Shown here piece by piece: positions 956 to 45,478 of a stretch of 46,395 bases of DNA (its first letter is position 1; each line of letters begins with the position of its first letter). The notes below the pieces were generated by a model. The model was not told where the DNA came from. It did no database searches and was given only the letters and a program-made list of their open reading frames with translations. Made by a program: the position numbers and the translations under genes. The DNA is from Stagnihabitans tardus (GTDB lineage: Bacteria > Pseudomonadota > Alphaproteobacteria > Rhodobacterales > Rhodobacteraceae), in contig NZ_JAABNR010000024.1 of assembly GCF_009925085.1 (NCBI RefSeq), forward strand, positions 1 to 46,395. The letters run 5' to 3'.

Positions 956-1158
956 GGGGCTGAGCATAGGGCGGGGGGCGACGGCGGCAAGGGGGGCAGT
1001 TCCGCCAGCAAGGGAGATTTGCCTTGAAAAGCGCCCCGCGCCGGGCAAAGGTTTTTTATTATCTCTCGAGACCGCGCCGGGCTGGACCGCGGCGCCCTCG
1101 GGCCCTATGTAGCGTCTCTCCGACAGATACCCACAAGACCTGCGACAGGAACCCCGCG

Positions 1159-3435
1159 ATGTCCCGTTTCCATGCTCCCATTGCCGAACAGATCTGGGAT
1201 ATGAAATACCGCCTGAAAGAGGCCGATGGCACCCCCGTCGATGGCACGGTCGAGGACACCTGGCGGCGGATCGCGCGGGCCTTGGCCTCGGTCGAACAGG
1301 ACCAGGCCCTGTGGGAAGACCGCTTCTATGCCGCGCTGGAGGATTTCAAGTTCCTCCCCGCAGGTCGCATCACCGCAGGCGCGGGCACCGGCCGCGCCGT
1401 CACTCTGTTCAACTGCTTCGTCATGGGGACCATCCCCGACACGATGGGCGGCATTTTCGACGCGCTGAAAGAGGCGGCGCTGACCATGCAGCAGGGGGGC
1501 GGCATCGGCTATGACTTCTCGACCATCCGGCCGCGGGGCGCGGAAGTGAAGGGCGTCGCCGCCGACGCCTCTGGCCCGCTGTCCTTCATGGATGTCTGGG
1601 ACGCCATGTGCCGCACGATCATGTCGGCGGGCTCGCGCCGGGGCGCCATGATGGCGACCATGCGCTGCGACCACCCCGATATCGAGGCCTTCATCGAGGC
1701 CAAGAAGGACCCCGCAAGGCTGCGGATGTTCAACCTCTCGGTCCTGGTCACCGATCCCTTCATGGCCGCCGTCAAGGCCGATGGGCCTTGGGAGCTGGCC
1801 TTCGGCGGCCGCGTCTACAAGACCGTCCAGGCGCGCGACCTCTGGAACCGGATCATGCGCAACACCTATGACTTCGCCGAGCCCGGGGTCATCTTCATCG
1901 ACCGGATCAACACGGCCAACAACCTTGGCTATGTCGAGACCATCGCCGCCACCAATCCCTGTGGCGAGCAGCCCCTGCCGCCCTATGGCGCCTGCCTTCT
2001 GGGCTCGGTCAACCTCGCGGCCCTGGTGACCGATCCCTTCACCCCCCACGCCCGGATCGACGAGGCCAAACTGGCCGACCTGGTCGCCATGGCCGTCCGC
2101 ATGATGGACAATACCGTCGACGCCAGCCGCTTCCCCTTGCCCGCGCAAGAGGCCGAGGCCCGGGCCAAGCGCCGCATCGGCCTTGGCGTCACGGGGCTCG
2201 CCGATGCGCTCTTGATGGTCGGCCTGCGCTATGGCTCGGATGAGGCCGTGGCCCAGACCAGCGCCTGGATGAAGGCGATTGCGCGGGCCTCTTACCTCGC
2301 CTCGGTGGGGCTGGCGAAAGAGAAGGGCGCCTTCCCGCTCTTCGACGCCAAGGCCTTCCTGGCCTCGGGCAACATGATGGGCATGGACGAGGATGTCCGC
2401 GCCGAGATCGCCACCCATGGCATCCGCAACGCGCTTCTGACCTCGGTCGCGCCCACCGGCACGATCAGCCTCTTTGCGGGCAATGTGTCGTCAGGGATCG
2501 AGCCGGTCTTCGCCTATGCCTATACGCGGAAAGTCCTGCAAAAGGACGGGTCCCGCACCGAGGAAGAGGTGGTCGACTACGCCGTCCGCCTCTGGCGCGA
2601 GCTGAAGGGCGACGCGCCCCTGCCGGATTACTTCGTCAATGCCCAGACCCTGGCCCCCCTGGACCATGTCAAGATGCAGGCCGCCGCCCAGCGTTGGGTG
2701 GACAGCTCGATCTCCAAGACCATCAACTGCCCCGAGGACATCTCCTTCGAGGACTTCCAGGAGGTCTATCTCTCCGCCTGGGACCAGGGCTGCAAGGGCT
2801 GCACGACCTATCGCCCCAATGCGGTGACGGGCTCGGTCCTGACCGTCTCGGAAAAGGAGCCCAAGCCCGAGGCCCAGCCCCAGACCGGCGGCGAGGTCGT
2901 CTACCTGTCCGAACCGCTCGATCGCCCCGCGGCGCTGGAGGGCCAGACTTACAAGCTGAAATGGCCGGGCAGCGAGCACGCGCTTTACATCACGATCAAC
3001 GACATCCTGATCGCGGGCCACCGCCGCCCCTTCGAGGTCTTCATCAACTCCAAGAACATGGAGCACTACGCCTGGACCGTGGCCCTGACGCGGATGATCT
3101 CGGCGGTCTTCCGGCGCGGCGGGGATATCTCTTTCGTCGTCGAAGAGCTGAAGGCGGTCTTCGATCCGCGCGGCGGGGCCTGGATGGAGGGGCGCTATGT
3201 GCCCTCGATCCTGGCGGCCATCGGCGGGGTGATCGAGCGCCACCTGATCGCCATCGGCTTCATCGCGGGCGAGGGCTTGGGGCTGAAGTCCGACCCCAAG
3301 GCCGAGATCGTCACCAGCCTGGCGAAGGCCGAAGGAGCGCCGAAAAGCGTTTGCCCCTCTTGCGGGTCGCATGCGGTGCAGATGAAAGAGGGCTGCATGA
3401 GCTGCAACGACTGCGGCCATTCGAAATGTGGCTGA
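1159..3435 (+). CDS. nrdJ: Adenosylcobalamin-dependent (class II) ribonucleoside-diphosphate reductase
   Basis: This 758-aa enzyme reduces ribonucleotides to deoxyribonucleotides using adenosylcobalamin as radical generator, so it needs no separate small subunit and works with or without oxygen. Visible hallmarks are the first redox cysteine in FNCF (C86), the NPCGE active-site loop (N266, C268, E270) followed by LPPYGACLLGSVNL, and a late GTISLFAGN-type loop. The C-terminus carries a cluster of cysteines (CPSCG, then CMSCNDCG, then SKCG), the zinc-ribbon-like redox tail common in the long proteobacterial class II enzymes. I chose the ATG at 1159 (MSRFHAPIAEQIW); the frame is open upstream to 1024 but that part is not protein-like. 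No cobalamin riboswitch was recognised in the 200-bp leader. Confidence 0.93.
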   Translation: MSRFHAPIAEQIWDMKYRLKEADGTPVDGTVEDTWRRIARALASVEQDQALWEDRFYAALEDFKFLPAGRITAGAGTGRAVTLFNCFVMGTIPDTMGGIFDALKEAALTMQQGGGIGYDFSTIRPRGAEVKGVAADASGPLSFMDVWDAMCRTIMSAGSRRGAMMATMRCDHPDIEAFIEAKKDPARLRMFNLSVLVTDPFMAAVKADGPWELAFGGRVYKTVQARDLWNRIMRNTYDFAEPGVIFIDRINTANNLGYVETIAATNPCGEQPLPPYGACLLGSVNLAALVTDPFTPHARIDEAKLADLVAMAVRMMDNTVDASRFPLPAQEAEARAKRRIGLGVTGLADALLMVGLRYGSDEAVAQTSAWMKAIARASYLASVGLAKEKGAFPLFDAKAFLASGNMMGMDEDVRAEIATHGIRNALLTSVAPTGTISLFAGNVSSGIEPVFAYAYTRKVLQKDGSRTEEEVVDYAVRLWRELKGDAPLPDYFVNAQTLAPLDHVKMQAAAQRWVDSSISKTINCPEDISFEDFQEVYLSAWDQGCKGCTTYRPNAVTGSVLTVSEKEPKPEAQPQTGGEVVYLSEPLDRPAALEGQTYKLKWPGSEHALYITINDILIAGHRRPFEVFINSKNMEHYAWTVALTRMISAVFRRGGDISFVVEELKAVFDPRGGAWMEGRYVPSILAAIGGVIERHLIAIGFIAGEGLGLKSDPKAEIVTSLAKAEGAPKSVCPSCGSHAVQMKEGCMSCNDCGHSKCG

Positions 3436-4048
3436 TGCGGGGGGATTGCGGTTTTCTGTCGGACCCACGATAAAATGTCCATTTCCCGGATGATTTGACC
3501 ATTCCGGCACAGGATTAGTGACCTCCGGCTGCGACGCAGTCGGTGGTTTCCTACTTAATTCAATGGCTTGCGGGTCTTGAGGGTTTGCGGATTTTTCGTC
3601 ATGCTGTCCGGGGGGCTTCTCGTGGTCCGGATTGTGAGCCGCTGCGGCAAGTGATCTGCGGTGTGATGCCAGCAACACGAATGTCGGTCATTGCTTCGGC
3701 GCCTCTGAACGCTGCCAACCGGTTCTGTTCTCGGCAATACTGTGGGGCGCCTTGAGCTTTGACGTTGAGGCGTCGCAAAGGGCGGAGACCGGACTTTCGC
3801 CGCGGTCGCGCAGACGCCGCCGATTTTCGGCGGAAGCGGACACTGGACTTCACATAGCCCTGCCCAACGTTTAGTCTCGGGGCAGAATTCCGACGAAAGG
3901 CAGTGCGGCGTGGCAGCCATATGTCTGGCGATTGTGATCTCTCGATCGCCTCGCAGCACGGACGAATTGAAATCGACGCGAACGACGGGAAGTGTCGTTT
4001 TTTTGCGGGCGTACTAACGGTATTCTCGAGCGCAAACACGTGGGAGAC
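3436..4048. other. Intergenic region with an IS21-type end fragment; no gene seen
   Basis: About 610 bp between the reductase gene and the ATPase cassette. The first part (3460-3605) is a copy of an IS21-type end also found at 45029, listed separately. The rest has no recognisable coding content. It contains a run of G/C-rich imperfect repeats around 3780-3850 (CCGGACTTTCGCCGC, CCGATTTTCGGCGGAAGCGGAC) that resembles intergenic repeats I recall from Rhodobacteraceae. The promoter of the following cassette presumably lies at 3860-4040, but I see no clean -35/-10 pair. Confidence 0.5.
3460..3605 (+). repeat. IS21-type element end fragment, copy A (direct repeat of 45029-45172)
   Basis: The first 56 bases match 45029-45084 at 54 positions, and similarity continues with scattered substitutions to about 3605. 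The block contains repeated short motifs (GATAAAATGTCCATT, then GATGATTTGACCATT), the sort of multiple terminal repeats present in IS21-family ends. No istA or istB remnant follows this copy, so it is a solitary end. It marks the left side of the AT-richer ATPase cassette. The alternative, a transposase-binding end of a Tn7-like element, is less likely because copy B is followed by istB and right-end remnants. Confidence 0.6.
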
Positions 4049-4282
4049 ATGCGCGTGGAAGACAAAGCAGAGACGGCAGATACGCCGGAAATATTTCTTA
4101 TTGCACTAGGAGAAAGTCTTAAGGGAAAGGAGGGCGTCGATGTCGGTATGGCGGACATCCTTAGCACTCACATCCTGAAAGCGGCGCCCGCGCAGAACGC
4201 CGTAAGTCAGGCCAAGGATGCGATGCTAAAACTTGCAAGCGAACGTGCTACTCCTCCCAAACCTGAGGTGACGAATGACTGA
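4049..4282 (+). CDS. Small protein of unknown function, partner of the SMC-like ATPase
   Basis: A 77-residue protein that I do not recognise. The frame is open from 3992, but ATG 4049 is preceded by GGGAG at a normal distance, so I prefer it. The sequence is mostly helical in character (EIFLIALGESLKGKEGVDVG, then ILKAAPAQNAVSQAKDAMLK) with a Pro/Lys-rich tail. It has no cysteine cluster, signal peptide or membrane segment. Its stop overlaps the start of the ATPase gene (ATGACTGA, ATG at 4275), so the two are translationally coupled and probably form one complex. Small partners of this kind sit next to ABC-type ATPases in several bacterial conflict systems; that role is inference here. Confidence 0.65.
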   Translation: MRVEDKAETADTPEIFLIALGESLKGKEGVDVGMADILSTHILKAAPAQNAVSQAKDAMLKLASERATPPKPEVTND

Positions 4283-6752
4283 TCCTTACCTCCTTCAGTC
4301 TTTGAGCCTTTCCGGATTTCGCGCCTATCTCGAACCGAAAACGTTTGATTTCAGCAGGAAGCGTTGCCTAGCGATCTTTGCGCCGAACGGGCGCGGCAAA
4401 TCCAGCGCCATCGATGCGCTGGAATTCATGTTCTCCAAGGACGGAACGCTCGAAAGGCTTGGGCAGCGCGCAATCAACAACCAGGCTGGACCCATGGCAT
4501 TGGCCCACAATCTGGCTGAGGAGAGGAAGATTCTGGCGGCGGTTACGATCGGCGTGGTCTCGGGCAAGAATTCCACCAACGGCAGCCGAGCGGCGACGGG
4601 GGCGAAGCGACCGATACCGGCGGTGGCCGCGACTTTGAACGACTGTTTTGCGGTGTCGCCGATCATCCGCGGGCATGCGCTGCGCACGTTCGTTGAAATC
4701 CATACGCCTGAACAGCGATACACGGATGTCGCCAAGTGGCTGCAGCTCGGCCCGCTGGTTGAAGTACAGAAGAACATTCGCGCGCTGCGCACGCAGGTGA
4801 AGGCCGCCGCCGAGGACGAGACGGCGCTGCAGCGCGTGGACACCCAGCTTGCCAGGGAGACGGCCCAGGCGGTGAAAACCTGGGATGCGTCGGCAGTGCT
4901 CTCCCACGCCAACACGCTGGTCCTGGCGCCACTCGATCCGTCGCTAGTGCTGGCGGCGCTGGCGGCCGACGATATGATCTATCTCGAACTGGAATCGCGC
5001 GCCAAGGCTGAGGAAAACAAGATCGGGCTTGCAGGACTGCGCCAGATCCGCAGCGCGGCTGCCGCTTTGTGGGCGGAGACGACGGACACGGAGGGCGGCG
5101 AGGCTGTCGTCAGAGGTGCGATTCCGACCTTTGATGCGGCTGTCGCGGTGCTGTCGGCGGCTGAGAGTAAAGAAACGGAAGAGCGCGGCAAGGCGGCGAG
5201 TAGCGTGTTTCAGGCTTTGTGGAAAGCCGCGGCACCGCTTTTTGCCGAAGGGATAGCGGCACCTGACATTTGCCCTGTCTGCGCGACACCTGTCGCGGAC
5301 ACGGCGGCTGGCAGCGCTGAGACGATCCGGGAACACATCTCCAAGCACCTGGAGGAGTTGGCGGACTACGCTGACGCCAAGAAGGCGCTCGACGAGGCCA
5401 AGACTGCGGCAACCAAGGCCCATACCCAGTTGGTAGCGGTTCTGCCGGGGTTGATTGGACATCTTGGCGACAGCGAGGCGGAACTGAAAGCTGATCTTAC
5501 CGCTTATCAAGGAGCCATTGCCGGCTGGCCTCAGACCGCCATTCCGGGCTCGACCGATATTGTCGCGGCAATTGCCAAGCTACTTTTCACGCTCGATCAG
5601 GCCATAGCGGACATCGAATCGAAGCAAGGCGACCTTACCTACATCAAGGCCAAGGCGAAGATCGATCGTTTTCTAGAGCTGCAGACCGAGCGGGACCTTG
5701 CGCTGCGGACGCGAGATGAACTGGGGAAACTCTCAGACGCTTTGACGGCGCAGGCGACGATTGTCTCGGCCGAGATCCGCAAGAAGGTGCAGGCCTTGCT
5801 CGACAAGCTTCAGACGCCGATGAACGATATTTACAAGCTGATCCAGGGCGCTGGCGCCACACCAATCCGGCTGGAGCTGCCGGCGGAAGACGACACGAAC
5901 CAACAGCGGCTCAACCTCCTGATCGACTTCGCCAAGAACCGCACGGGCGTGCAGCCGGGCGGCTACTTGAGCGACTCACAGATCCATTCGGTTGCGCTCG
6001 CGCTGCGCATGGCGGCGATCAAGCAATTTAATACAGGCGCACCCATCATTGCGCTCGACGACATCGTGACCTCCTATGATGCGGATCATAGGCGCACTAT
6101 CGCAGGGCTCATCGCCACCATGTTCGGCGACTGCCAGATCCTGATCACGACTCACGACGAGCGATTCTTCAATTATCTGAAGGATCAGCTTGAAGCGAAG
6201 ACGTGGCACTTCACCCGGATCATTGGTCTCGACCCGGCCTACGGGCCGCGTTTCGCTGATCATAAGGTCAGCGATGAGATGATTGCGGCACGTTGGGCGG
6301 CGGGCCAGTCGGCAGCCAATGAGATGCGGCAGGCCGAGAAGGAATGGCTTCTCGGCATCTGCCGAGATTTCGGGGTCAGCGTCCGCATCCGGCCGCTAGA
6401 TAGGGCCTACTCCTACGAACGCAGCGAGTTGGCTTCGGCGCTTGCCGGCCTGCTCAAGGATGCCAAGCTGGTGCCGGCGCTGGTGCCGGGCGTCAACAAC
6501 CGGTTCCTGGACAGTTTGGTGAAGGGCGAGGTCGAGAACTTTGGCAGTCACTTCCAAGACGGGCCCTATGGCGACGGTTCTATGGGTGACGAGAAAGCGC
6601 GCTGGGAGGAATTCAAGAATTTCCGCAGTCAGTTTGCATGCAAGAAGTGTAGCCGAATGAAATTCCAGCGGCCCTTCACTCTGAAAAAGCCGGTCTGCGC
6701 TCATGAAGGCTGTGAGGCTCAGTTCGAGTTCGCGGTGGCACCGGCGCAGTGA
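4275..6752 (+). CDS. SMC/Rad50-like ABC ATPase with zinc hook and C-terminal zinc ribbon
   Basis: An 825-aa SMC-type ATPase. The N-terminal half-domain has Walker A APNGRGKS (36-43). A long helical insert rich in Ala, Glu, Gln and Lys carries a zinc-hook-like CPVC (C333, C336). The second half-domain has an ABC signature LSDSQ (565-569), Walker B IIALDD (D595, D596) and the H-loop TTHDE (H627). A further domain of about 190 residues follows and ends in a four-cysteine zinc ribbon (CKKC at 789-792, then two cysteines near 808 and 813). Such a layout suggests an ATP-gated clamp acting on nucleic acid, as in Rad50, RecF-like and defence ATPases. It is shorter than RloC, and I could not place an anticodon-nuclease triad in the tail. 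Base composition is clearly less GC-rich than the neighbours, suggesting transfer. Confidence 0.85.
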   Translation: MTDPYLLQSLSLSGFRAYLEPKTFDFSRKRCLAIFAPNGRGKSSAIDALEFMFSKDGTLERLGQRAINNQAGPMALAHNLAEERKILAAVTIGVVSGKNSTNGSRAATGAKRPIPAVAATLNDCFAVSPIIRGHALRTFVEIHTPEQRYTDVAKWLQLGPLVEVQKNIRALRTQVKAAAEDETALQRVDTQLARETAQAVKTWDASAVLSHANTLVLAPLDPSLVLAALAADDMIYLELESRAKAEENKIGLAGLRQIRSAAAALWAETTDTEGGEAVVRGAIPTFDAAVAVLSAAESKETEERGKAASSVFQALWKAAAPLFAEGIAAPDICPVCATPVADTAAGSAETIREHISKHLEELADYADAKKALDEAKTAATKAHTQLVAVLPGLIGHLGDSEAELKADLTAYQGAIAGWPQTAIPGSTDIVAAIAKLLFTLDQAIADIESKQGDLTYIKAKAKIDRFLELQTERDLALRTRDELGKLSDALTAQATIVSAEIRKKVQALLDKLQTPMNDIYKLIQGAGATPIRLELPAEDDTNQQRLNLLIDFAKNRTGVQPGGYLSDSQIHSVALALRMAAIKQFNTGAPIIALDDIVTSYDADHRRTIAGLIATMFGDCQILITTHDERFFNYLKDQLEAKTWHFTRIIGLDPAYGPRFADHKVSDEMIAARWAAGQSAANEMRQAEKEWLLGICRDFGVSVRIRPLDRAYSYERSELASALAGLLKDAKLVPALVPGVNNRFLDSLVKGEVENFGSHFQDGPYGDGSMGDEKARWEEFKNFRSQFACKKCSRMKFQRPFTLKKPVCAHEGCEAQFEFAVAPAQ

Positions 6753-6941
6753 GATTGCTCTTCCGATATTGGCATGCCGGATCATGCTGCAAGATGTCAC
6801 CGATGGCCGGTTTTAGGAAGCTGGACAGCAGAGAGAACCGACCCGACGAGAGGCAGGTCAGGGCCGGGTGTGTCGATGATACCAGGATCGTCGCAGGGGG
6901 CGGAAAGCGGTCGTTCTAGCCTGCAAGTCTTGCTTCGCCGT

Positions 6942-8069
6942 TCAACCCATCCTGCGCAAAGCCAGGGACATCGCGATTTGGCCAACGGCCAGGGCCAGAA
7001 TGCTTCCGACCAAGACGGGTGCAGTTGATGAGACAACTGGTGCAGCGGCTGCAATCAAAGCGACAAGAACGTAGGGCCAACCCGAGGACAGCGGAAGGCC
7101 GTGGGTGGCCAGGGACACAAGGGTGACCCCGGTCATGGCGCAGGCCGCCCCCAGGGCAAACACCCATGGCGCGGGCCCGGCCAGGTCGATGTGATGGGCA
7201 AGATAGACCGTCCCGGCCCCCAGGCTTGCGATCCCCAGGTAGAGCGGAATGTGGCCATAGGCCCAGAGCCGCAGGCTCCGCCCGGCCGCGGCATCTGCGA
7301 TGTGCCGTTCGGCATTGCCGCGGGCGCGGCGGAAGTAGCCTATCCAGTAAAGAAAGCCTAAGCCCGCCCCCATCAGCGCCACGGCAAGCGTATCGCCGTG
7401 CAACTCGGGCCCATGGTCCAGCGCATGGACCGCGGCGGCGGCCGTCTCGCCCAGAAGGATGATGGTAAAGAGACCAAACCTTTCGGGCAAATGCTCCGGG
7501 TGTGGCGGTGCGTGATGGGTCTCACGCGCCACAAGGAAGGGCGTCGCGACGTCGAGCAAAAGGGCCAGCGCCCAAAGCGTCTGGCGCAGCGTCGGCTCGA
7601 CCCCGATCGACCCGGCCCAGAGCGCGGCCTGCACGGCGTAAATCGCCCCATAGATCGTGCAAAGACGGGAAAGCCCGGGCCTGCGGATCTCACGCAGGTA
7701 ACCCAGCATCAGCAGGGCCTTGAACCCGGCCACGCCCCCGGCAAAGGCCCAGGCGCGGGCACCCGAGGCATCGCTGGCGCCGTAGGCGATGAAGACGACG
7801 GCAAGGATCTGGGCAAAGCCGATCGCCCATTGGTCCGGGCGGTCCTCGTCAAAGCGGCTGGCGTGGAACGTGTGCCCCAGCCAGAGCCACCAGAGGACAA
7901 GGAACAGAAACCCGAACTCTGCCAGGCCCGCCCAGTCGTAGTGATGCGACAGCGCACCGCCAAGTGCTGCCACCGCGACCACGAAGACCAGGTCGAAGAA
8001 CAGTTCGAACCAGCTGGCCTTTCGGCCTTCGGCATGGGTCAGGACAGCAGTCTGAGGGGGATGGTTCAT
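6942..8069 (-). CDS. Low temperature requirement protein A (LtrA) family membrane protein
   Basis: A 375-aa polytopic membrane protein of the LtrA family. It begins with a soluble stretch and the family hallmark WFELFFDLVFVVA, followed by roughly a dozen hydrophobic segments. A conserved interior segment HLPERFGLFTIILLGE is also typical. The molecular function of the family is not established. I chose ATG 8069 (MNHPPQTAV), preceded by GGGAG on the minus strand; a longer frame starts at 8132 with non-conserved residues. It is the last gene of a minus-strand run that begins with the F420-type oxidoreductase gene, 59 bp after the PfpI-like gene. Confidence 0.88.
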   Translation of the reverse strand: MNHPPQTAVLTHAEGRKASWFELFFDLVFVVAVAALGGALSHHYDWAGLAEFGFLFLVLWWLWLGHTFHASRFDEDRPDQWAIGFAQILAVVFIAYGASDASGARAWAFAGGVAGFKALLMLGYLREIRRPGLSRLCTIYGAIYAVQAALWAGSIGVEPTLRQTLWALALLLDVATPFLVARETHHAPPHPEHLPERFGLFTIILLGETAAAAVHALDHGPELHGDTLAVALMGAGLGFLYWIGYFRRARGNAERHIADAAAGRSLRLWAYGHIPLYLGIASLGAGTVYLAHHIDLAGPAPWVFALGAACAMTGVTLVSLATHGLPLSSGWPYVLVALIAAAAPVVSSTAPVLVGSILALAVGQIAMSLALRRMG

Positions 8070-8128
8070 GATGGCTCCCAAGGATGTGGAGAGGCCGGGC
8101 CGGGCGCCCTTGACCCGGCCCGGTGCGT

Positions 8129-8866
8129 TCAACGGCCCAGCGTCTGGACGACCAGTTCAGCCGCCGCCCCGCCCGAGAACTGCTGCTGGCCGGTGATCAA
8201 GTTGCCATCGCGCAGCGCAAAGGCCTTGAACATCGAATTCACCACGAAGTTGGTGCCTTCGAGCTTCTTCGCCTCTTCCTCGATCCAGAAGGGCTGGATC
8301 TTCTGGCCCACCCAGGCGTCGGCGAAGGCCTCTTCGCTGTTGGCGAAACCGGTCCAGGTCTTGCCCTTGACCAGCAGGTCGCCGTTCGACAGGCGGGTCT
8401 TCAGCAGGATGCAGGTGCCGTGGCAGACGATCGAGACGATCTTGCCCGCCTCGTAGGCGCGGGCCACGAAGGCATGCAGCGCGGTGTCGTCGATCATCGT
8501 GACCATGGGCGACTGACCCCCGGCCAAGAAGACCACGTCGTAGGCCGTCGGGTCCACCTCGGCGATGGATTTCGTACCTTTCAGGAGGGCCGCATGGGTG
8601 GCGGATTTTTTGAAACCGAGGGAGATCAGGTCATGGGCGGAATAGCCCGACGCATCCTCGGGGTCCGAAAACCCGTCGGCCACCAGATCGCCGCCCTTGG
8701 GGCTGACGATCTCGATCTCGTAGCCGGCTTCCGAGAAGGTCCAGTAGGGATGGGTCAACTCTGCCCACCAGAAGCCCACGGGCCAGCCGGTGGTGGAAGA
8801 GGTGCCGGGGTTGGCGGCGATCATCAGGACTTTCTTTTTGGTATGCACGTCGATGGAGGCAGACAT
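8129..8866 (-). CDS. DJ-1/PfpI family protein (type 1 glutamine amidotransferase-like, HchA-like)
   Basis: This 245-aa cytoplasmic protein has the class I glutamine-amidotransferase-like fold of the DJ-1/PfpI superfamily. The nucleophile elbow is SIVCHGT, with the catalytic Cys at C148 next to H149, and a conserved acidic residue lies in WWAELTHP (E36), the pattern of HchA-like members. Relatives act as glutathione-independent glyoxalases or protein/nucleotide deglycases on methylglyoxal adducts. The neighbours, a GFA-family protein and a monooxygenase-like protein, fit a reactive-carbonyl role, but the substrate is inference. It starts 12 bp after the ABM-domain gene ends, so co-transcription is likely. 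Confidence 0.88.
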   Translation of the reverse strand: MSASIDVHTKKKVLMIAANPGTSSTTGWPVGFWWAELTHPYWTFSEAGYEIEIVSPKGGDLVADGFSDPEDASGYSAHDLISLGFKKSATHAALLKGTKSIAEVDPTAYDVVFLAGGQSPMVTMIDDTALHAFVARAYEAGKIVSIVCHGTCILLKTRLSNGDLLVKGKTWTGFANSEEAFADAWVGQKIQPFWIEEEAKKLEGTNFVVNSMFKAFALRDGNLITGQQQFSGGAAAELVVQTLGR

Positions 8867-8878
8867 TGTCTCGTCCTT

Positions 8879-9433
8879 TCAGAGGGTTTTCGATTTCGGA
8901 TAGATGAAGCGGGCGATCAGCGGCGTCAGGCGGGGCATGATGACGTAAGTCATCAGCCCGACCTGGATGCAGACCGTCACAAGCACCCGAAGCGGCAGCG
9001 GCCAGGCGATCATCAGCGGCCCCAGGATCAGGTTCAGTGCCAGCACCAGCGTGAAGACCACCGCGATCAGAACCAGCGCCATTCGGTGCAGGCTCGGTTG
9101 CGGGACCTTCGTGCCGGGGGGAGGGTCGAACCAGAACTCGAGGCCGGTCAGCCGCTCCCATGCCGCATCGGCGGCAAAGAGCGGCGCGGCCTCGGCCAGC
9201 ATCGCGGCCCGGAAGTCCGACCGCTCGAAAGCGTCAAGATGGTCCATGCTATCAAAGCGAAAGACGCTGCGATAGGCGCCACCGGGGCTGGCGGGGCGGT
9301 GGAATTCGGCCCCCAGATAGCCAGGGAACTGTGAGGTCGCGCCCCGCGACAGGCGTTCAAGCCAGGCCTCATAGTCGGTCTCGCGCCCGGACCTGACCCT
9401 GCGGCGAACGACGATGGTGACCGGACCCGTCAT
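8879..9433 (-). CDS. Antibiotic biosynthesis monooxygenase (ABM)-domain protein with C-terminal membrane segments
   Basis: The first ~100 residues of this 184-aa protein form a ferredoxin-like ABM domain (VTIVVRRRVRSGRETDYEAW, FPGYLGAEFHRP, FRFDSMDHLDAF). The C-terminal ~75 residues contain two strongly hydrophobic helices (MALVLIAVVFTLVLALNL and a second after WPLPLRVLV). Such membrane-anchored ABM proteins are common and mostly uncharacterised. The ATG overlaps the stop of the GFA gene (ATGA), which indicates translational coupling. Some ABM enzymes oxidise quinone-like compounds without cofactor; I cannot say whether this one does. Confidence 0.85.
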   Translation of the reverse strand: MTGPVTIVVRRRVRSGRETDYEAWLERLSRGATSQFPGYLGAEFHRPASPGGAYRSVFRFDSMDHLDAFERSDFRAAMLAEAAPLFAADAAWERLTGLEFWFDPPPGTKVPQPSLHRMALVLIAVVFTLVLALNLILGPLMIAWPLPLRVLVTVCIQVGLMTYVIMPRLTPLIARFIYPKSKTL

Positions 9434-9807
9434 GACGCCACCTTGGGCAGGTCGTACCAGTCAGGCTTCGACGGCTCCCACAGGTTCTTGATGATCCGTC
9501 GGCCCGTCGGCCCATCGATCAGCCCGGCCGAGACCAGCCAGCGCCCGGCGGCGGTGATCTCTTTGACCACCCGCGCGCCGCAGGTCCCGCAAAAGGCCCG
9601 GCGCGAGGCTGCACTGGACTGATACCAGACCAACGCCTCCTCTTCTTTCACAGTCATGTCGGCACGGGAGGCGGCGACGAAGGCGTTAAAATTGCCGTGC
9701 ATCTTCTGGCAGTCGCCGCAATGGCAGGCCAGAACCCCGGCCGCGCCGGCGGGCATCGTGATGTGAACCTTGCCGCAATGGCAGGAGGCGGTCAGGATGT
9801 CGGTCAT
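9430..9807 (-). CDS. GFA family protein (glutathione-dependent formaldehyde-activating enzyme-like, CENP-V fold)
   Basis: A 125-aa zinc protein of the GFA/CENP-V family. The cysteine pattern is complete: CHCG near the N-terminus, CHCGDCQ in the middle, and CGTCGA in the C-terminal half. The classic family member was described as assisting the reaction of formaldehyde with glutathione, but many members have unknown substrates. It begins 4 bp downstream of the original stop of the broken oxidoreductase gene and overlaps the ABM gene by 4 bases, so it belongs to the same operon. Confidence 0.88.
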   Translation of the reverse strand: MTDILTASCHCGKVHITMPAGAAGVLACHCGDCQKMHGNFNAFVAASRADMTVKEEEALVWYQSSAASRRAFCGTCGARVVKEITAAGRWLVSAGLIDGPTGRRIIKNLWEPSKPDWYDLPKVAS

Positions 9808-9810
9808 TGC

Positions 9811-10443
9811 TCAGCCCTCCACGGCCGAAAAGGCCCAGTTGCGGCCCTTGGCCCGGAACAGGGCCTGGTTGATCCAGACCATCGCGAAGGGTTCCAGCAG
9901 GCGCGCCTTGGTCAGATCGCCCGCGTCCTGCGCGGCAAAGCCGAGGTCGGTCAGAAGCTCTGCCACCTGCGCCTTTGCGCCCGCATCGTTTCAGGCCATG
10001 AACATGACCGGGCGCAGCGGAAAGTGGTCATTCCGGGCCATGATCTCGGCCCCCACCTGGTTCAGGGTCTTGACCACATGCGCCTGGGGAAGCCAGCCCT
10101 GCACGATCTCGCCGCCCGAGGTCTTGTGCCCGACCGTCAGGCCCAAGGCGCCGTCGATCATCCCCAGCGGATTCATGCAGTCGATGACGGTCTTTCCGGT
10201 CAGCGACCCCAAGGCCCGGACGGCGCCTTCGGCCGCATCCCAGGGCAGGGCCAGGATGATGACATCGGCAGCCTCGGCGGCGTCAGCCGGCAGCATCGGC
10301 ATGGCATCGGTCTCGGAGGCCAGCGCGACGACCTCGGCCGCCTGCGGATCGCGCGCACCAAGGCCTATGGCATGGCCACGGCCCCTCAGTCCCCTGGCGA
10401 TGGCAGAGCCGACCTTACCGGTGCCGATGATCGCGACGCGCAT
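9811..10443 (-). pseudogene. NADPH-dependent F420 reductase-like oxidoreductase, interrupted by an in-frame TGA
   Basis: The protein begins MRVAIIGTGKVGSAIARGL, a Rossmann dinucleotide-binding motif of the F420-oxidoreductase/prephenate-dehydrogenase-like family, followed by DVIILALPWDAAEGAV, TVIDCMNPL and VKTLNQVGAEIM. At 9991-9993 the frame meets TGA after RPVMFMA. Reading on in the same frame gives NDAGAKAQVAELLTDLGF and then KARLLEPFAMVWINQALF up to a stop at 9811. The family usually has Gly-Asn-Asp there, so a single GGA-to-TGA change explains it. The C-terminal ~60 residues would be lost, so this is a recent pseudogene, a sequencing error, or a truncated but working protein. The start at 10443 is preceded by AGGGGAAA. 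It would be the first gene of the minus-strand operon and diverges from a LysR gene. Confidence 0.8.
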
Positions 10444-10517
10444 CCCACTTTCCCCTTGCTTCATTCGCTGCATCAGAGATATGCGGTGAACGAAAGAATT
10501 GGTAATGAATAATCATC

Positions 10518-11441
10518 ATGTCTGAGTTAAGCACATCAGAACTCCGCCGCCTGGACCTGACCTTGCTCCTGGTCTTTCTGGGGCTGGTGCGGCACCGCAA
10601 GGCGCTGGATGTGGCGGCCGAGCTTGGCCTCACCCAGTCGGCCATCAGCCAGTCGCTGAAGCGGCTCCGAGACATATTCGGGGATGAACTTTTCCTGCGT
10701 CGTCCGCATGGGATGGAGCCCACGGCCACCGCACTTGCCCTTGAGGCGCCAGTTGCCGCAGCCGTCGATGCCCTGCGGGGCGCGCTGGGGGCCGCGCGAG
10801 ACTTCGACGCCGCCACCGCGACGGGCCTGGTCCGCATTGCCGCGCTCGATGCCGAACAGGCCGTCCTGATCCCGCCCCTTGCAGCGCGGCTGCGCCAGCT
10901 TGCCCCCGGACTGACCCTGTCGGTCCTGCCGCTGGGGCGTGGAGCCGCCATGGACGCCTTGTCAGAAGGCCGGGCCGACCTGGTGCTGGGCTTCGTCTGG
11001 GATCTGCCTGAAATGGTTTCCGGCAAGACGATCTACGAGGAATCCTTCCTGGTCGCGGGACGACCTGAAGCCCTGCCACAGGCGCCGGACATCAGCATCG
11101 ATGCCTACTGCGCCGCCGACCATGTGCTGATTTCACCCGGAGGCGACCTGCGAGGGGTGGTGGACGACCAGCTGGAGGCCATGGGCCGCAGCCGTCGCGT
11201 GATCCTGGGCCTGCCGGCCTTTTTGCCCGCGCTGGCCGCCGCAGCCGAGTCTGCCGCCCTCGTCACCCTGCCAGCCCGCGTCGCGCGCGCCTTTGCCGCG
11301 GGCTTCGGCCTCGTCACAGCTGAGCCGCCCATTCCCGTGCGGAGGTTCCCAGTATCGGTCTTCTGGCACCGGCGGAACGAGACCGACCCGAGAACGACCT
11401 GGATCCGACAACAGATCCTCGGGGTTTCGATCACTCATTGA
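10518..11441 (+). CDS. LysR family transcriptional regulator
   Basis: This 307-aa regulator has the LysR N-terminal winged helix (AAELGLTQSAISQSLKRLRDIFGDELFLRRPHGMEPT), followed by a periplasmic-binding-protein-like effector domain in which LVLGFVWDLPE lies near the hinge. It is transcribed divergently from the oxidoreductase/GFA/ABM/PfpI/LtrA operon, from a 74-bp intergenic region, the usual layout for a LysR activator of its neighbour. That region holds a short inverted repeat GCAT-N7-ATGC at 10470-10484, which may be part of its site, but the arms are too short to be sure. The inducer is unknown. Confidence 0.9.
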   Translation: MSELSTSELRRLDLTLLLVFLGLVRHRKALDVAAELGLTQSAISQSLKRLRDIFGDELFLRRPHGMEPTATALALEAPVAAAVDALRGALGAARDFDAATATGLVRIAALDAEQAVLIPPLAARLRQLAPGLTLSVLPLGRGAAMDALSEGRADLVLGFVWDLPEMVSGKTIYEESFLVAGRPEALPQAPDISIDAYCAADHVLISPGGDLRGVVDDQLEAMGRSRRVILGLPAFLPALAAAAESAALVTLPARVARAFAAGFGLVTAEPPIPVRRFPVSVFWHRRNETDPRTTWIRQQILGVSITH

Positions 11442-12188
11442 GAGCCGTTCGGATATGATCCCTCTGGAACCCCCATTGAATGGTAATGAGCGAATGTCGA
11501 TGTGACTTTGGTTCGTCGCAAGGGGCCGACCTCGTTGATGACGGTCTGGATCGTCACAAGGGGCGGAAAGCCGTCACTCGACAGTCGCGCGGTTTGCCGC
11601 AGCTTGTGCCACAACGGCCGTTCAGCGGACATCGGCAGGGTCATCTGGGAAAGGCAAGACCTCGTCGCTAACCAGAGGGAGGGTCGTGCGATCACCGAAA
11701 GGCGGAGGTTTGCCATGTCAGAGACCTGACGTCCTCGGCATCGGGAGCGTCTCTGGACGCTCTGTCGCAAAGACGGTCAGGTTTCCTGTCTTGAAGGGCC
11801 GGCACATCGCATTGCGCAAATCGCACGATCCAGCATTCGGTTCAAGCGATGTACCAAACCACTCCAAGCCCGACAAGCGAACCATTGTCGGAGGCCTCCC
11901 ATGGAAGCCACGGACCCTGCGCATCTGTCGTCATGGCCCCGCAAGGGCATTGCCCTTCACGAACCGGGTTGCACTGTTGACCGAAAATGCGCGGCCCGGA
12001 TCCTGATTTTGGCGCAACGCAATTCTGATTGGCGGTTTCGCCCGCGCAGGCGGTAGTTAAGAGACCCAATCCCTGCGGCCCTCGCATGATGTGCCCGATT
12101 GGCCACCGACCCAAAGCCCTTCGCTTGGGCACTTCGGGATGCCGCCCCGGTTGTCTTTGCCCGGGCTTTGCGGCAGGATACTGGCGAG
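11442..12188. other. Long intergenic region, no gene recognised
   Basis: About 750 bp between the LysR gene and the copper locus. Frames on both strands are open for 60-110 codons but show no recognisable protein composition. The DNA is somewhat less GC-rich than the surroundings, which could mean decayed coding sequence. The promoter of the copper locus should lie near 12000-12180; I see no convincing copper-regulator box there. Confidence 0.4.
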
Positions 12189-39958: not shown

Positions 39959-40096
39959 ACTCAGGGCGGCAGGCGACGCCGTCCACCCAGCAACCCGCTC
40001 TCTCTTGAGCCATGCCTCTTCCAAGCGGTGCCTTTCGGGGACCGCCCTCCCTCCTGCTGCCTTGTGCGACGTCAAACATCTGAAAAGGACCTTGAA

Positions 40097-41356
40097 ATGG
40101 ATCTCTCCTTCTCCAACGAAAACACCCGCTATGCCTTTGGCCGTTTCGACCGTGTCACCGTGGACGGCATGGCTTTCCGTCTCCACATGGAAATGGAGGT
40201 TGGGGTGGTCATGACCCAGGATGACGACACGGGCTTCTCCAAGCAGTTCTCGCATCAAGACCTTTCCCGTTTGGGAAGCCTGGGCCGGATCCGCGTCGAG
40301 CGGAACTATTTCAATCCGGCCGCTGCGCGCAAACGGCAACTGGCGCATGGCGTATCGCTTTCGGCGCTCTCCGAGCGGCCGCTGCGCCGGTTCGTTTGCA
40401 AGGATGCTTATTGCCAGGCGGCAATCGACATGCACCGCGAGAAGCTGATGAACTTCACCGACGCATCCATTAAGGCATCCACGGATATGTTGGTGGGGCG
40501 TGCGGCACAGCTGGCATCCAAGCATGCTCCTTCTGGTGCCATGCATATTCTGCCCTCGGAGAACATGGGGGAAGCGCCGAGCCCTCGGACGCTTCGCAGG
40601 TGGCTTGCAGAACGCAACGATTTGAACCTGGTCGGCCATCTGGACAATATGGATCGGCGCGGATGGCGGGGAACCCGTCTCGATCCCGAAGTTGCCTGCA
40701 TCATGCACAGGGAAGTTCAGGGGTATCTCTCCCGCGACAAGCCGACGATCCAGCACATCTACGAAAATGTTCAATTGGCCATTCGCGAACGCAACGAACA
40801 ACACCCCGAAGAAGATCAACTCAGCGTACCGAGCCGTGAAACCGTTCGTCGGGCGATCCGTGCTTTGGACCCTTTCCGCGTCGAAGTCGCCCGTAATGGC
40901 GAGGCGGCAGCCCGCAAAAGGTTCAGGCCTGTTCTGAATGGTCTTGGCGTGACCCGCCCTCTGGAACGCGTCGAGATCGACGAATGGACGGTGGACGCCT
41001 CGACCTTGCTCGAGAGCACCAACATCTATGGCATGCTTACCGATGACGAGAAGCGGCAACTCGGCCTCTATATCAAAGGTGACGAGAAGGACCCGAATTA
41101 CAAGGCGAAAGTCAAGCGCCGGGATCGCTGGACCCTGACCGCCGCGATCTGCTGTGCCACGCGCTGCATTGTCGGCATGGTCCTGAGCCGGTCCGCGAAC
41201 TCCGAGGCGGCCGTCCAACTCTTGCAAATGATCACGACCAACAAGGGGGCATGGGCGGATGCGGTCGGGGCCCTGACGCCCTGGGACATGCACGGCACGC
41301 CTGAGCTGATCGTCTTCGATGGTGGTTCTGCCTTCATTCGATGCGCTTCCGCATGA
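40097..41356 (+). CDS. TnsB/TniA-like transposase, N-terminal part with two of the three DDE residues
   Basis: This 419-aa frame holds the N-terminal DNA-binding portion and most of the RNase-H-like core of a Mu/TniA/TnsB-type transposase. An N-terminal domain comes first; helix-turn-helix-like segments include SPRTLRRWLAERNDLNLVGH. D295 (RVEIDEW) is the first catalytic Asp and D408 (LIVFDGG) the second. The frame ends 11 residues after D408 at TGA (41354-41356), while the third catalytic residue, Glu, is encoded in the overlapping next frame. I chose ATG 40097 (MDLSFSNEN), preceded by AAAAGGAC. Confidence 0.8.
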   Translation: MDLSFSNENTRYAFGRFDRVTVDGMAFRLHMEMEVGVVMTQDDDTGFSKQFSHQDLSRLGSLGRIRVERNYFNPAAARKRQLAHGVSLSALSERPLRRFVCKDAYCQAAIDMHREKLMNFTDASIKASTDMLVGRAAQLASKHAPSGAMHILPSENMGEAPSPRTLRRWLAERNDLNLVGHLDNMDRRGWRGTRLDPEVACIMHREVQGYLSRDKPTIQHIYENVQLAIRERNEQHPEEDQLSVPSRETVRRAIRALDPFRVEVARNGEAAARKRFRPVLNGLGVTRPLERVEIDEWTVDASTLLESTNIYGMLTDDEKRQLGLYIKGDEKDPNYKAKVKRRDRWTLTAAICCATRCIVGMVLSRSANSEAAVQLLQMITTNKGAWADAVGALTPWDMHGTPELIVFDGGSAFIRCASA

Positions 41357-42315
41357 CGGCTGAAGATCTCGGCGTGATGTGGGAAATGGCGATGAACGAT
41401 GTGCCGGAAAACCGCGGCACGCTCGAGCGTTCCTTGGGCAGCTACGCGAGCGATTTCGCGCCGCGTCTGTCAGGACACACGTTTTCCAGCATCATGGAAA
41501 AGGGTGATGCGGATCCCGAGAAGCGCGCCGCACTCACCCTTGACGATTTCACCTTCGCGCTCCTGCGTTGGGTGATCGACATCTACCACAACACGCCCCA
41601 TCACGGGCTGGGCGGGGAAACCCCTGTGAAGGCATGGCGTCGCCTGTCGAAGCTTCACGGCGTGACGCCGCCGCCGGATGCGGAGATGATGCGCCTGTGC
41701 TTCGGTCACCAGCGCGAATATCGCCTCGATAAGACCGGAATCACCATTCTGGGTGTGCGGTACCAGTCCGAAGCTTCCCAGGAGCATTTCCGTCGCGAAA
41801 ATCCGGAAAACGTTTCGGTGCGCTGGCACCCCAAGGACATCGGCGCCATCTCGGTCAAACGGGGCAAGACCTGGTACGAGGTGCCTTCGCTTGACCCGTC
41901 GCTGCGGGGCGTAGCAGCCCAGACCTGGCTGACGGCTGTGCGTCATGTCCGTGACGCGAACCCGAAGTCGAACCGCCTCGACAACGTCGCCGTCCGTGAC
42001 GCCATCAGGGCGATCCAAGCGCGCAACGAAGCGGCGATGGCTGCAGCCGGTCTCAACCTCGAGGACTGGTCCGAGGAACACTGTGCGAAGGAAGAAAAGA
42101 AGCTTCTGGCTGGTATCGAGTTCGTTGAGCGCAAGGAATTGCGCCAGGCAAAAGACGGGCTCGGCATGGAGATCCCCGCATCCTCCGAGCTGAGCGTGGC
42201 GGCTGAGAAACCCAGCGCGCGGGTAACGCCCAGCAAACCCACGAAGCGGGCGACCCAAGGGCGCCGCGCGACGCCCGCAACTTCCCAATCCAACATGACC
42301 ATCGAGGAAAACTGA
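41341..42315 (+). CDS. TnsB/TniA-like transposase, C-terminal part with the catalytic Glu
   Basis: A 324-aa frame that overlaps the previous one by 16 bases in the -1 frame. It begins MRFRMTAEDLGVMWEMAMND and carries the catalytic Glu in RGTLERSLGSY (E29), followed by the retroviral-integrase-like end of the core (RWVIDIYHNTPHHGLGGETP) and a beta-barrel plus C-terminal tail (MTIEEN), where TnsB-type proteins bind TnsC. Together with the upstream frame this is one complete transposase; separate translation would split the DDE active site. A frameshift mutation, sequencing error or -1 ribosomal frameshift are all possible; no classical A-run slippery site is visible in the overlap. Confidence 0.8.
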   Translation: MRFRMTAEDLGVMWEMAMNDVPENRGTLERSLGSYASDFAPRLSGHTFSSIMEKGDADPEKRAALTLDDFTFALLRWVIDIYHNTPHHGLGGETPVKAWRRLSKLHGVTPPPDAEMMRLCFGHQREYRLDKTGITILGVRYQSEASQEHFRRENPENVSVRWHPKDIGAISVKRGKTWYEVPSLDPSLRGVAAQTWLTAVRHVRDANPKSNRLDNVAVRDAIRAIQARNEAAMAAAGLNLEDWSEEHCAKEEKKLLAGIEFVERKELRQAKDGLGMEIPASSELSVAAEKPSARVTPSKPTKRATQGRRATPATSQSNMTIEEN

Positions 42316-42317
42316 TT

Positions 42318-43271
42318 ATGGCACCGGCTGATACCGCAAAATTCGCCCTGGAACGTGTCCGCAGCCTTCACATCGGCTCCGCGCGTGATGCCGAGGCCGC
42401 CATGCACACGACGCGCCTTCTTGCCACGGACGAACAGGGGCAGCTGACCCCTGTCGCCAAGCGCTTCACCCGCACCGGAGAGACACGTGGGGTCATGCTG
42501 ATCGGGGGGCCCGGAAGCGGCAAGTCCCACCTGTTGGAGCGTACTCTGTCTAGGATCCAGGTGTTGCAGGAGGGCGAATACGGGCGGCCGCGCTATCTCG
42601 GATGTCCGGTGCCGAGCCCCGCGACATTCAAGAGCATGACGCTCGCCCTGCTGGAGGAGAGCGGCTATCCCGATGCGAACCCACGCAAGGAAGCCTGGTC
42701 GCTCTGGCAGGACTTGCGTCATCGCTTGCAGCTTCTGGGGATCTCGGTGCTCTGGATCGACGAGGCGCAGGACCTCTTCTGCGCGGACCGCAAGTTGATC
42801 CTTCGGGCGCTGAAATCCCTGATGCAGGGCGACGATGCCGTCATCGTGGTCTTGTCTGGCACGGAAGACCTTGCCAAGGTTATTCGCACGGATCCGCAGG
42901 TGCAGCGGAGGTTCACCGCGATGGTGCTCCCCGATCTCGTCGAGCAGGTAGACGGCGACAGCTTCCGCGATGTCATCACGCAATACTGCCAGCGTGTCGG
43001 GCTTGGGGCGCCGATCGAAGCGGACCTTATCGGGCACATCTTCCATGGGGCACGCTATCGGTTCGGACGTGCCCTCGAACTGCTTCTCCATGCCATGGAA
43101 ATCGCCATCGAGCGCGGCGACGACGACCTGGATATCGGGCATTTCGCGGCTGCCTACGCGATGAACGAGGCCTGCACAGCTGCCGATAATGTCTTCTATG
43201 CCGAGTATTACTGGCTCTTGAAACCCGATGAGGTCGAGGAGGATGTGGATCCTCGTCGGAAAAAACAGTGA
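42318..43271 (+). CDS. TnsC/TniB-like AAA+ ATPase of the transposition module
   Basis: This 317-aa AAA+ protein has Walker A GGPGSGKS (63-70) and Walker B VLWIDEAQ (144-151), the TniB/TnsC pattern, with VVLSGTEDLAKVI as sensor region. TnsC-type ATPases assemble on DNA and connect the target selector (TniQ) with the transposase. It starts two bases after the TnsB-like stop and is followed by the TniQ gene after 10 bp, so all are in one operon. Confidence 0.88.
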   Translation: MAPADTAKFALERVRSLHIGSARDAEAAMHTTRLLATDEQGQLTPVAKRFTRTGETRGVMLIGGPGSGKSHLLERTLSRIQVLQEGEYGRPRYLGCPVPSPATFKSMTLALLEESGYPDANPRKEAWSLWQDLRHRLQLLGISVLWIDEAQDLFCADRKLILRALKSLMQGDDAVIVVLSGTEDLAKVIRTDPQVQRRFTAMVLPDLVEQVDGDSFRDVITQYCQRVGLGAPIEADLIGHIFHGARYRFGRALELLLHAMEIAIERGDDDLDIGHFAAAYAMNEACTAADNVFYAEYYWLLKPDEVEEDVDPRRKKQ

Positions 43272-43281
43272 GGGCGGTTTC

Positions 43282-44820: not shown

Positions 44821-45028
44821 GCCAGAGAACCTGACATTTCCCATGAAACTTTGTCGTGCCGCCTTCGGGTGGCATTTTTTTTACGGGCTTTCGATGGTCA
44901 TTTTCTCTGGGTGAAATGGCCATCTCGTGGCCCCAAGGCGTGTTTCGGTGATTCCGGTCTATATATTTCAATGGCTTGTGGTGCGAGGAGAGCGGCCAGT
45001 GGACAATAACTTGTGGGCCCGACATTTT
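44821..45028 (+). terminator. Terminator of the tns operon and following intergenic region
   Basis: A stem of 8 pairs (44856-44863 with 44868-44875, two of them G-U) closed by a TTCG tetraloop is followed by eight T residues (44875-44882). This is a textbook intrinsic terminator 35 bp after the TniQ stop. Downstream there are short motifs GGTCATTTTCTC (inverted) and GTGAAATGGCCATC related to those in the IS21-type ends, and a leader-like TATATATTTCAATGGCTTG that recurs in altered form at 45123. Confidence 0.85.
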
Positions 45029-45478
45029 CGGACCCACGATAAAATGTCCATTTGTCGGATGATTTGACCATTCCGGCACAGGATGAATGACCACCGGCTG
45101 CGATGCGGTCGGTGGTCATCTTATATATCAATGGCTTGGGGGCTGGTGGACTTGCGGACTTTCGTCCTGCTGCCCAGGCTCCCGGCTTCGGCAACGGGGC
45201 GGTCTCACTCAAACCGGATTTGCGCAGGCCCCGTCGCCCCCGGCTTTGCGCGATCGCCTGACCCACCGCTGCCCCTCGGCATCGGGCTCGAACCGATGGC
45301 GCCACGATGGTTCGACATGGAGACCGGCAATGACGTCTTCCGCTTCAAGGCGAGCTCCACCGTCGCGACCCGCAAAAGCAGGGAGGCAACCCAGCCATTG
45401 ACCCAAGCCTGAACTCCGGACCATAGCCCTCGCCTGGGTCACGTCCCGATGGAAAACCTGGGTCAGTTCTGCGCAAAA
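45029..45478 (+). mobile_element. Internally deleted IS21-family derivative (copy B)
   Basis: The left end (45029-45172) is a direct repeat of 3460-3605, and a hairpin GACATTTT/AAAATGTC (45021-45028 with 45039-45046 or so) borders it. After a gap without istA, remnants of the IstB C-terminus follow in two frames (ALRDRLTHRC near 45243, METGNDVFRFKASSTVATRK from about 45318). A right-end-like segment (45447-45478) parallels the one at 37069. The result is a ~450-bp non-autonomous derivative that might be mobilised by an intact IS21 elsewhere. It sits against the broken DUF4166 gene. Confidence 0.72.

Follow-up and report, generated by a model that had tools for sequence, protein, structure and literature searches.

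A mobile gene pair of Stagnihabitans tardus, encoding a zinc-hook ATPase with an RloC-like tail and a small overlapping partner, as a candidate two-component defence system

What might a zinc-hook ATPase do when it is encoded together with a protein of only 77 amino acids, in a bacterium of whose genus 15 other genomes have no copy of the pair? This question is raised by positions 4049 to 6752 of contig NZ_JAABNR010000024.1 of Stagnihabitans tardus, of which positions 1 to 46,395 (forward strand) are here called the window. The explanation that we favour, with some reservation, is that the two genes probably constitute a mobile two-component defence system, which would sense DNA and act as an abortive RNase, and which would resemble RloC in its mechanism. 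Our confidence was lowered slightly because the six profile comparisons made with the tail of the ATPase were counted together.

The first gene of the pair (4049..4282, on the forward strand like all features below unless stated) encodes an acidic protein of 77 amino acids with an isoelectric point (pI) of 4.9, and the second (4275..6752) encodes an 825-residue Rad50/RecF-like ATP-binding cassette (ABC) ATPase with a zinc hook, a putative RloC-like tail and a zinc ribbon. The ATG at 4049 is the most plausible start of the small gene, the alternative being a GTG at 3992 that would yield 96 residues. The two genes share 8 nucleotides (4275..4282; ATGACTGA), and this overlap is 8 nucleotides long in all 25 loci of the close family, the window included. 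Together with the wider survey described below, this bears out the coupled two-gene unit that an earlier note on this DNA had described. The pair is also AT-richer than both of its neighbours, as had been noted, with a G+C content of 0.599 (0.530 for the small gene) versus 0.660 for the left neighbour (1159-3435) and 0.661 for ltrA. The long open reading frames (ORFs) that flank it are 1024-3435 on the left, which we take to be nrdJ from our own reading with no profile run, and LtrA (6942-8132, reverse strand) on the right.

Compared with the three nearest two-gene relatives, the window gave ratios of nonsynonymous to synonymous substitution rates (dN/dS) of 0.18-0.19 for the ATPase gene and 0.34-0.36 for the small gene. 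Over all relatives compared, the ratios against the window were 0.08-0.19 and 0.16-0.39, respectively, the low values accompanying dS above 1 and one further pair being saturated for each gene; for the small gene of L005 versus that of L002 or L003 (numbers with L denote loci) the ratio was 0.50-0.51. Both genes of the pair are under purifying selection. We rejected a frame or annotation artefact, since the ORFs are open, conserved and under selection.

The coupling extends well beyond the close family. A small upstream ORF that overlaps the ATPase start by 4-26 nucleotides was present in 42 of 42 loci, which comprise the 25 close loci (window included), a distant plasmid branch (hosts Rhizobium, Mesorhizobium, Roseibium, Sphingomonas, Phaeobacter and others), Bacteroidota (L029, L103) and haloarchaea (L093, L094, L095, L102). 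Under equal limits, such an ORF preceded one of nine PF13166 ATPases; for other ORFs of at least 250 residues, which were chosen by length alone and possibly include false ORFs, the count was 32 of 172. Five of five further loci with a usable start also show the overlap under slightly wider limits, L092 only via an inner ATG. The overlap is beyond chance. The small ORFs measure 57-141 residues by their longest start and 53-98 residues as aligned, and their products are acidic, with pI values of 4.0-5.7 and one of 6.7. Since the close and distant small proteins are too divergent for homology to be established by alignment, a function shared throughout the family rests on their place and coupling. 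For the small protein of the window, no Pfam or PADLOC match was obtained at an E-value of 1 and a single NCBIfam match had an E-value of 0.21; family scans of this protein and some of its relatives gave no match above cut-off.

Several loci were left out of this count, namely L023, L025 and L040 (partial ATPases), L041 (only 87 nucleotides of upstream DNA), L026 (a 19-bit match to the P-loop only) and L035, whose start could not be read. The window itself goes under the two numbers L001 and L036, one gene appears as both L039 and L091, and the ATPase gene of L042 is in two pieces (with L040). A 573-residue ATPase from a Streptomyces plasmid (L101:4122-5843) resembles the second half of the distant branch and has neither hook nor small gene; it was treated as a non-member, and counting it would give 47 of 48. 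On a Halorhabdus plasmid (L105:18846-21516), a small ORF extends as far as the first base of an AAA ATPase gene, next to which lies a DUF3578 gene, and this is perhaps another pair of a small protein and an ATPase.

The motifs that the earlier note had placed in the ATPase were all recovered by translation and alignment. In an alignment of 20 diverse ATPases, window included, on which the residue counts given here are based, N38, G41, K42 and S43 of the Walker A motif APNGRGKS (residues 36-43; 4380..4403) are invariant, as are C333, P334 and C336 of the CPVC zinc hook (residues 333-336; 5271..5282), S566 of the ABC signature LSDSQ (residues 565-569; 5967..5981), the Walker B residues L594-D595-D596 (6054..6062), in which Asp replaces the usual catalytic Glu, and H627 of the H-loop (6153..6155). 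Above cut-off, Pfam assigned only the generic SMC_N (60.5 bits) and AAA_23 (38.6 bits), with AAA_13 (PF13166) reaching 35.9 bits against a cut-off of 36 and covering residues 349-642 only. All 14 NCBIfam matches (RecF, SMC, Rad50 and others) were below cut-off. Solved structures matching the ATPase sequence were mostly heads of SMC, Rad50 and RecF, and among the structure matches listed no best stretch extended past residue 648.

It is the remaining part, residues 640-825 (6192..6749), that suggests a nuclease. The earlier note had described an unusual tail with a four-cysteine ribbon. The cysteines C789, C792, C808 and C813 (6639..6713) were indeed found, but the ribbon does not stand alone, as it is preceded by a putative RloC/PrrC-type triad. 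This consists of R685, which is followed after three residues by position 689 (6327..6341; Lys in the window, codon AAG, and Glu in the relatives), and of S758-H759 (6546..6551). The most conserved tail residues are C789 and H759 (20 of 20 rows), C792, C813, E689 and G657 (19 rows) and R685 and A681 (18 rows). In RloC, the catalytic triad has the form Arg-X3-Glu-X36-52-(Ser)His, and mutagenesis of the Geobacillus kaustophilus protein has shown R692, E696 and H737 to be essential, according to the available part of PMC2610378. We liken the tail to RloC and PrrC because its R-x3-E...(S)H pattern matches this triad, and thus regard R685-x3-E689...H759 as the putative catalytic pattern of an anticodon nuclease.

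The likeness was assessed with hhalign against tail templates from nine PF13166 proteins encoded in genomes of Alphaproteobacteria, fragments L082, L088 and L090 being excluded. Seven of the nine were scanned, and all of these had PADLOC PDC-S06 as their best match, three also matching PrrC; none of the templates is labelled or proven RloC. Altogether, six tail-profile comparisons were made. With a 12-row tail profile the P-values were 0.064, 0.64 and 0.021, over 13-20 columns that all lie on the R-x3-E helix, and with the 20-row profile they were 0.08 (the five RloC-nearest templates; His half only), 0.0017 and 0.001. The best comparison, that of the 20-row profile with the nine tails, had a score of 28.5 and a P-value of 0.001; it spans 104 columns and aligns both R-x3-E and H with their counterparts. 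Shuffles were run for this best pair only, and none of 400 reached its score (200 column shuffles gave at most 14.6 and 200 block shuffles at most 26.0), while the reversed template scored 11.3. The resemblance to PF13166 tails is supportive, not conclusive.

Several observations weigh against an RloC-like defence system. The hhalign probability is 21% at best, and the five other comparisons have P-values from 0.0017 to 0.64. Used by themselves, the four close-family rows give no tail signal (score 10.5), and the 16 deep rows reach 23.8, less than the highest-scoring block shuffle obtained with the full profile. E and H are separated by 69 residues, and by more in the distant branch, versus the 36-52 published for RloC. 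R685 is absent from both Bacteroidota rows, E689 is absent from the window, and template L079 has Asp in place of Glu. No HEPN family in Pfam matches the ATPase. Lastly, clear defence neighbours were seen in only seven of 18 plasmid loci. With regard to HEPN, the motif Rx4-6H does not occur in the tail, the nearest stretch being N755-x3-H759; the RloC and PrrC domains have been assigned to HEPN by others (PMC3710099, in the part available).

The Lys at position 689 deserves separate mention, as Glu occupies this position in the 19 other rows of the 20-row alignment and also in the other 28 rows of a further family alignment. At the equivalent position of RloC, a change from Glu to Ala abolishes activity (PMC2610378, same part). 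The window allele may therefore be nuclease-weak or dead, the predicted catalytic Glu being replaced by Lys. The Glu residues at 688 and 690 could stand in for it. The dN/dS values of the ATPase gene were 0.18-0.19 for pairs that include the window versus 0.18-0.21 among its nearest relatives, and thus give no sign of relaxed selection on the window copy.

Could the pair instead be a sensor of the Lamassu or ABC-3C type, in which the small protein is an LmuC-type component, the ATPase is LmuB and the effector is a third gene, so that the window copy would be a remnant without effector? This is the alternative that survives best, and we regard it as unlikely. In its favour, LmuB is the top PADLOC match of the ATPase (82 bits), LmuB being likewise a zinc-hook ATPase; LmuC is described as a small middle component (PMC10586767, in the part available), and here the small gene lies directly upstream of the ATPase gene. 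However, PF13166 proteins match the same LmuB profile, and the match ends at residue 638, so that some 185 residues of tail lie beyond it. Moreover, the window operon has no LmuA effector gene, nor any gene of LmuA size, and the small protein matches no LmuC model and, as stated, none in Pfam or PADLOC at an E-value of 1. Because neither LmuA nor LmuC was found, we do not file the pair as Lamassu.

The third genes are central to this alternative. A DUF3223 gene is present in nine of the 25 close loci that were scored (the window being one of them), a gene for an HD-CE-HATPase protein of about 870 residues in five, both in two and neither in nine; a third gene thus accompanies the pair in 16 of the 24 close relatives and is absent from the window. 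In L006, L009, L011, L013 and L021, the DUF3223 gene begins on the base after the ATPase stop, and the HD-CE-HATPase protein is encoded in L004, L007, L008, L010, L016, L017 and L022. Some copies are imperfect: the HD-CE gene of L007 is truncated and that of L010 runs off its contig, and as to DUF3223, the gene of L027 is short and those of L008 and L018 have interrupted frames. Only the third genes of L008 (HD-CE, HATPase) and L006 (DUF3223) were compared with profiles. The L006 protein matches HamC with 183 bits, HamC being a component of Hachiman type II (PMC8565338, in the part available), and nine to eleven further loci among those scored have relatives of this gene; no PADLOC match of the L008 protein has an E-value better than 0.004. 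The HD-CE-HATPase protein is a possible effector. When partner types were placed on a tree, 10 changes were counted (minimum possible 3; shuffled mean 12.6), with L014 scored as having none although its contig ends 315 nucleotides after the ATPase gene. The window, L005, L002 and L003 form a well-supported clade of four without a third gene, and its two genes are under purifying selection, which speaks against a remnant; likewise, the annotated distant loci, read by eye, have no common third gene. A hidden HD-CE or DUF3223 gene was rejected, as tblastn detected none in the window. The pair is a stable unit, and the third gene is a module.

That the pair moves between hosts is supported by its distribution. 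The genome of S. tardus (G000) has one copy, and among 101 genomes (its own, 15 others of the genus and further relatives) the only other match was a 19-bit P-loop, so that none of the 15 congeners has a copy. Elsewhere, 24 loci encode relatives that, where full-length, are 69-92% identical, or mostly so, in scattered Alpha-, Beta- and Gammaproteobacteria and in one record labelled Mycobacterium. Strong matches were obtained in six of 385 genomes of the class and three of 398 of the phylum, its own being counted in both. Because such similar relatives occur in scattered families and yet none in the genus, we consider the pair horizontally mobile and sporadic. The mobile character of the cassette proposed earlier thus stands, and defence genes were found near a good part of the relatives.

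The borders of the cassette agree in part with the earlier note. The nrdJ end was strongly matched in 14 of the 15 other genomes of the genus, the fifteenth having a 27-bp match, and in the four that were compared the match stops at 3433-3435, so that the DNA beyond is not common to them. With L002 and L005 the window has the DNA of 3780-6866 in common, which extends slightly beyond the two genes. This DNA includes a non-coding leader (3780..4048) that is also common to L003, and a 3' non-coding stretch (6753..6866) that is the likely cassette end. A 154-bp direct repeat occurs at 3457-3612, bordering the cassette, and at 45026-45178; the copies are 84% identical and there is no third in the genome. 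The repeat had been taken for a solitary IS21-type end, which we reject, as no IS21 transposase was detected among the six window proteins scanned. An end of a Tni-type element is at least as likely, since a TniB-TniQ pair (tniQ) precedes the second copy by about 200 bp. The region 40028-44820 contains a Mu-type transposase-like ORF and genes for TniB and TniQ, and a single transposase gene that has been interrupted may account for the two overlapping ORFs 40028-41356 and 41341-42315. L033, which carries a distant relative of the pair, also adjoins genes for TniQ, TniB and a transposase. On the right, a 4.7-kb stretch (6861-11568; ltrA and others) has a second, 94% identical copy in contig 21 of the same genome. 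Both of its ends bear a GGGCGGAAAGC-type repeat, a pattern found nine times in the genome and not at all in controls, and a similar motif lies near 3778, at the left cassette end. As to viruses, a distant pair is present on one IMG/VR viral contig; scans of viral contigs with two distant ATPases yielded none, and searches of phage records gave no match.

The survey of neighbourhoods that the earlier note had suggested yielded SIR2-HerA, AbiEii, Olokun and BREX-5 in some places, and little in others. Among the neighbours tested with PADLOC, SIR2 and HerA were matched in L013, AbiEii in L011 and OloA-OloB of Olokun in L014; the tested neighbours of L002 and L004 and two of L006 had no match, and those of L003 and L012 weak ones. 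Homologues of SIR2/HerA, identified by BLAST cluster, are also near the pair in L020, L021 and L025. The seven plasmid loci with annotated defence genes nearby are L031, L032, L093, L095, L097, L100 and L104, where restriction, BREX, DNA methylase, DarT/TIR, DUF499 and DUF262/HipA are annotated, and a BREX-5 locus of Halorhabdus tiamatea has the pair between its pglX and pglZ genes. The other 11 plasmid loci lack such genes, three being borderline (L028, nuclease-helicase; L030, TerB; L103, patatin and ThiF); L101 is left out of this count. Six 25-kb control stretches, from six of the seven plasmids, contained none of these genes, though they did contain one PIN-AbrB pair and one DUF3578 gene beside an AAA ATPase; this comparison is illustrative only, the six plasmids having been chosen after the neighbourhoods were known. 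In L009, L011 and L028, SbcD-SbcC-like genes are found downstream of the pair or of the DUF3223 gene next to it. The S. tardus genome also encodes a PDC-S06 ATPase (contig 16:64632-67196) and a PF13166 fragment (contig 6:236441-237232), so that several systems of this kind may coexist in it.

These neighbourhoods also bear on the possibility that the pair serves to maintain plasmids or islands in the manner of a toxin-antitoxin module, with the ATPase tail as toxin, the acidic small protein as antidote and no role in defence. The small protein is acidic throughout the family (pI 4.0-6.7), encoded first and coupled, and relatives reside on plasmids, as would be expected of such a module. A large ATPase with DNA-repair-type heads is, however, unusual for addiction modules, and the presence of defence genes nearby, with one pair inside a BREX-5 operon, also argues against it. 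We hold this explanation to be decidedly improbable, noting that maintenance and defence functions are compatible with each other. Least probable of all is a horizontally spread DNA-repair or chromosome-maintenance protein of the SMC/Rad50/RecF kind without RNase action, which would suit the resemblance of the heads and the SbcCD-like genes adjoining in three loci, but not the sporadic distribution with absence from all 15 congeners, the conserved and catalytic-looking tail, or the defence neighbours.

Returning to the RloC-like defence system, how close is the pair to what has been described? Like RloC (PMC2610378, in the part available), the ATPase is a Rad50-like ABC protein with a CxxC zinc hook, it shares the DD at Walker B with the PF13166 proteins examined, and in the best profile comparison its C-terminal R-x3-E...(S)H is in register with theirs. 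It differs from RloC in the overlapping small gene of all family loci tested, in the four-cysteine ribbon after the domain, in the spacer of at least 69 residues between E and H and in the Lys at 689 of the window, and from PF13166 proteins in its partial, sub-threshold match. Because the published spacing does not hold and a partner gene is present, we do not file it as RloC. The third gene of L006 links the family to Hachiman type II through HamC; no such gene is present in the window, and neither HamA nor HamB was seen adjacent, where no systematic search was made. MADS mad3 (64 bits over residues 7-638), Septu PtuA, PARIS AriA and Gabija GajA share ABC ATPase heads, but their matches do not extend to the tail, and the window has no TOPRIM or HNH partner. 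Among the best 25 of 32 PADLOC families, GajA, PtuA, AriA and JetC gave matches of P-loop length only, and none from Gabija, Septu, PARIS or Wadjet covered the full ATPase. The DndDE/CxC-DndE (Pbe) dyad, likewise made up of a zinc-hook ABC ATPase and its small obligate partner, forms the core of modular systems (PMC10853773, in the part available), but PbeC gave a P-loop-length match only (E-value 4e-4), DndE gave none, and the small protein of the window is shorter and acidic. The lack of assignment to a named SMC-type system thus holds, as no library searched (Pfam, NCBIfam, PADLOC) places both genes in one. A literature search, including the available parts of PMC12839542 and PMC10853773, found no description of the pair in these or in the titles and abstract beginnings that were listed; Krishnan et al. 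2020 was outside this search, so the clade may be listed there.

We think that the pair couples an ABC ATPase to an RNase domain and works like RloC. RloC, too, has a zinc hook; linear DNA together with ATP activates it, and mutations in the hook uncouple its nuclease from its ATPase (PMC3874168, in the part available). By analogy, the ATPase would dimerise via its hook and, as Rad50 and RloC do, sense abnormal DNA, such as ends or replication intermediates that arise when a phage or plasmid invades. A change in the heads, driven by ATP, would then free the C-terminal RNase domain to cut RNA, probably the anticodon loop of tRNA, so that translation would stop in the infected cell. The zinc ribbon may bind RNA or dock the RNase domain, and the small, translationally coupled protein would be an obligatory partner that either silences the nuclease or provides its trigger. 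Many relatives have in addition an exchangeable third gene (DUF3223/HamC-like or HD-CE-HATPase), the clade of the window having the pair alone.

More tentatively, and with less confidence than in the reading of the window itself, we suggest that the family is a hitherto undescribed class of DNA-sensing, anticodon-nuclease-like defence systems in bacteria and archaea, with two obligatory components, namely a small acidic regulator and a Rad50-like protein that is both ATPase and RNase and ends in a zinc ribbon. It might also provide a sensor platform on which third effectors can be exchanged and lodge in systems such as BREX-5, and some copies, that of the window among them, may have lost catalysis. 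In RloC, regulation is by an internal switch, and PrrC is kept silent by a restriction enzyme (PMC3874168 and PMC2610378, in the parts available). If the present reading is true, a tiny partner gene, which accompanied the ATPase gene at all loci tested, from those of Bradyrhizobium to those of haloarchaea, would be a third way to keep a DNA-damage-sensing RNase safe and to move it between hosts, and the unexplained DUF3223/HamC and HD-CE-HATPase proteins would be linked to a common sensor, which would provide a testable handle on them.

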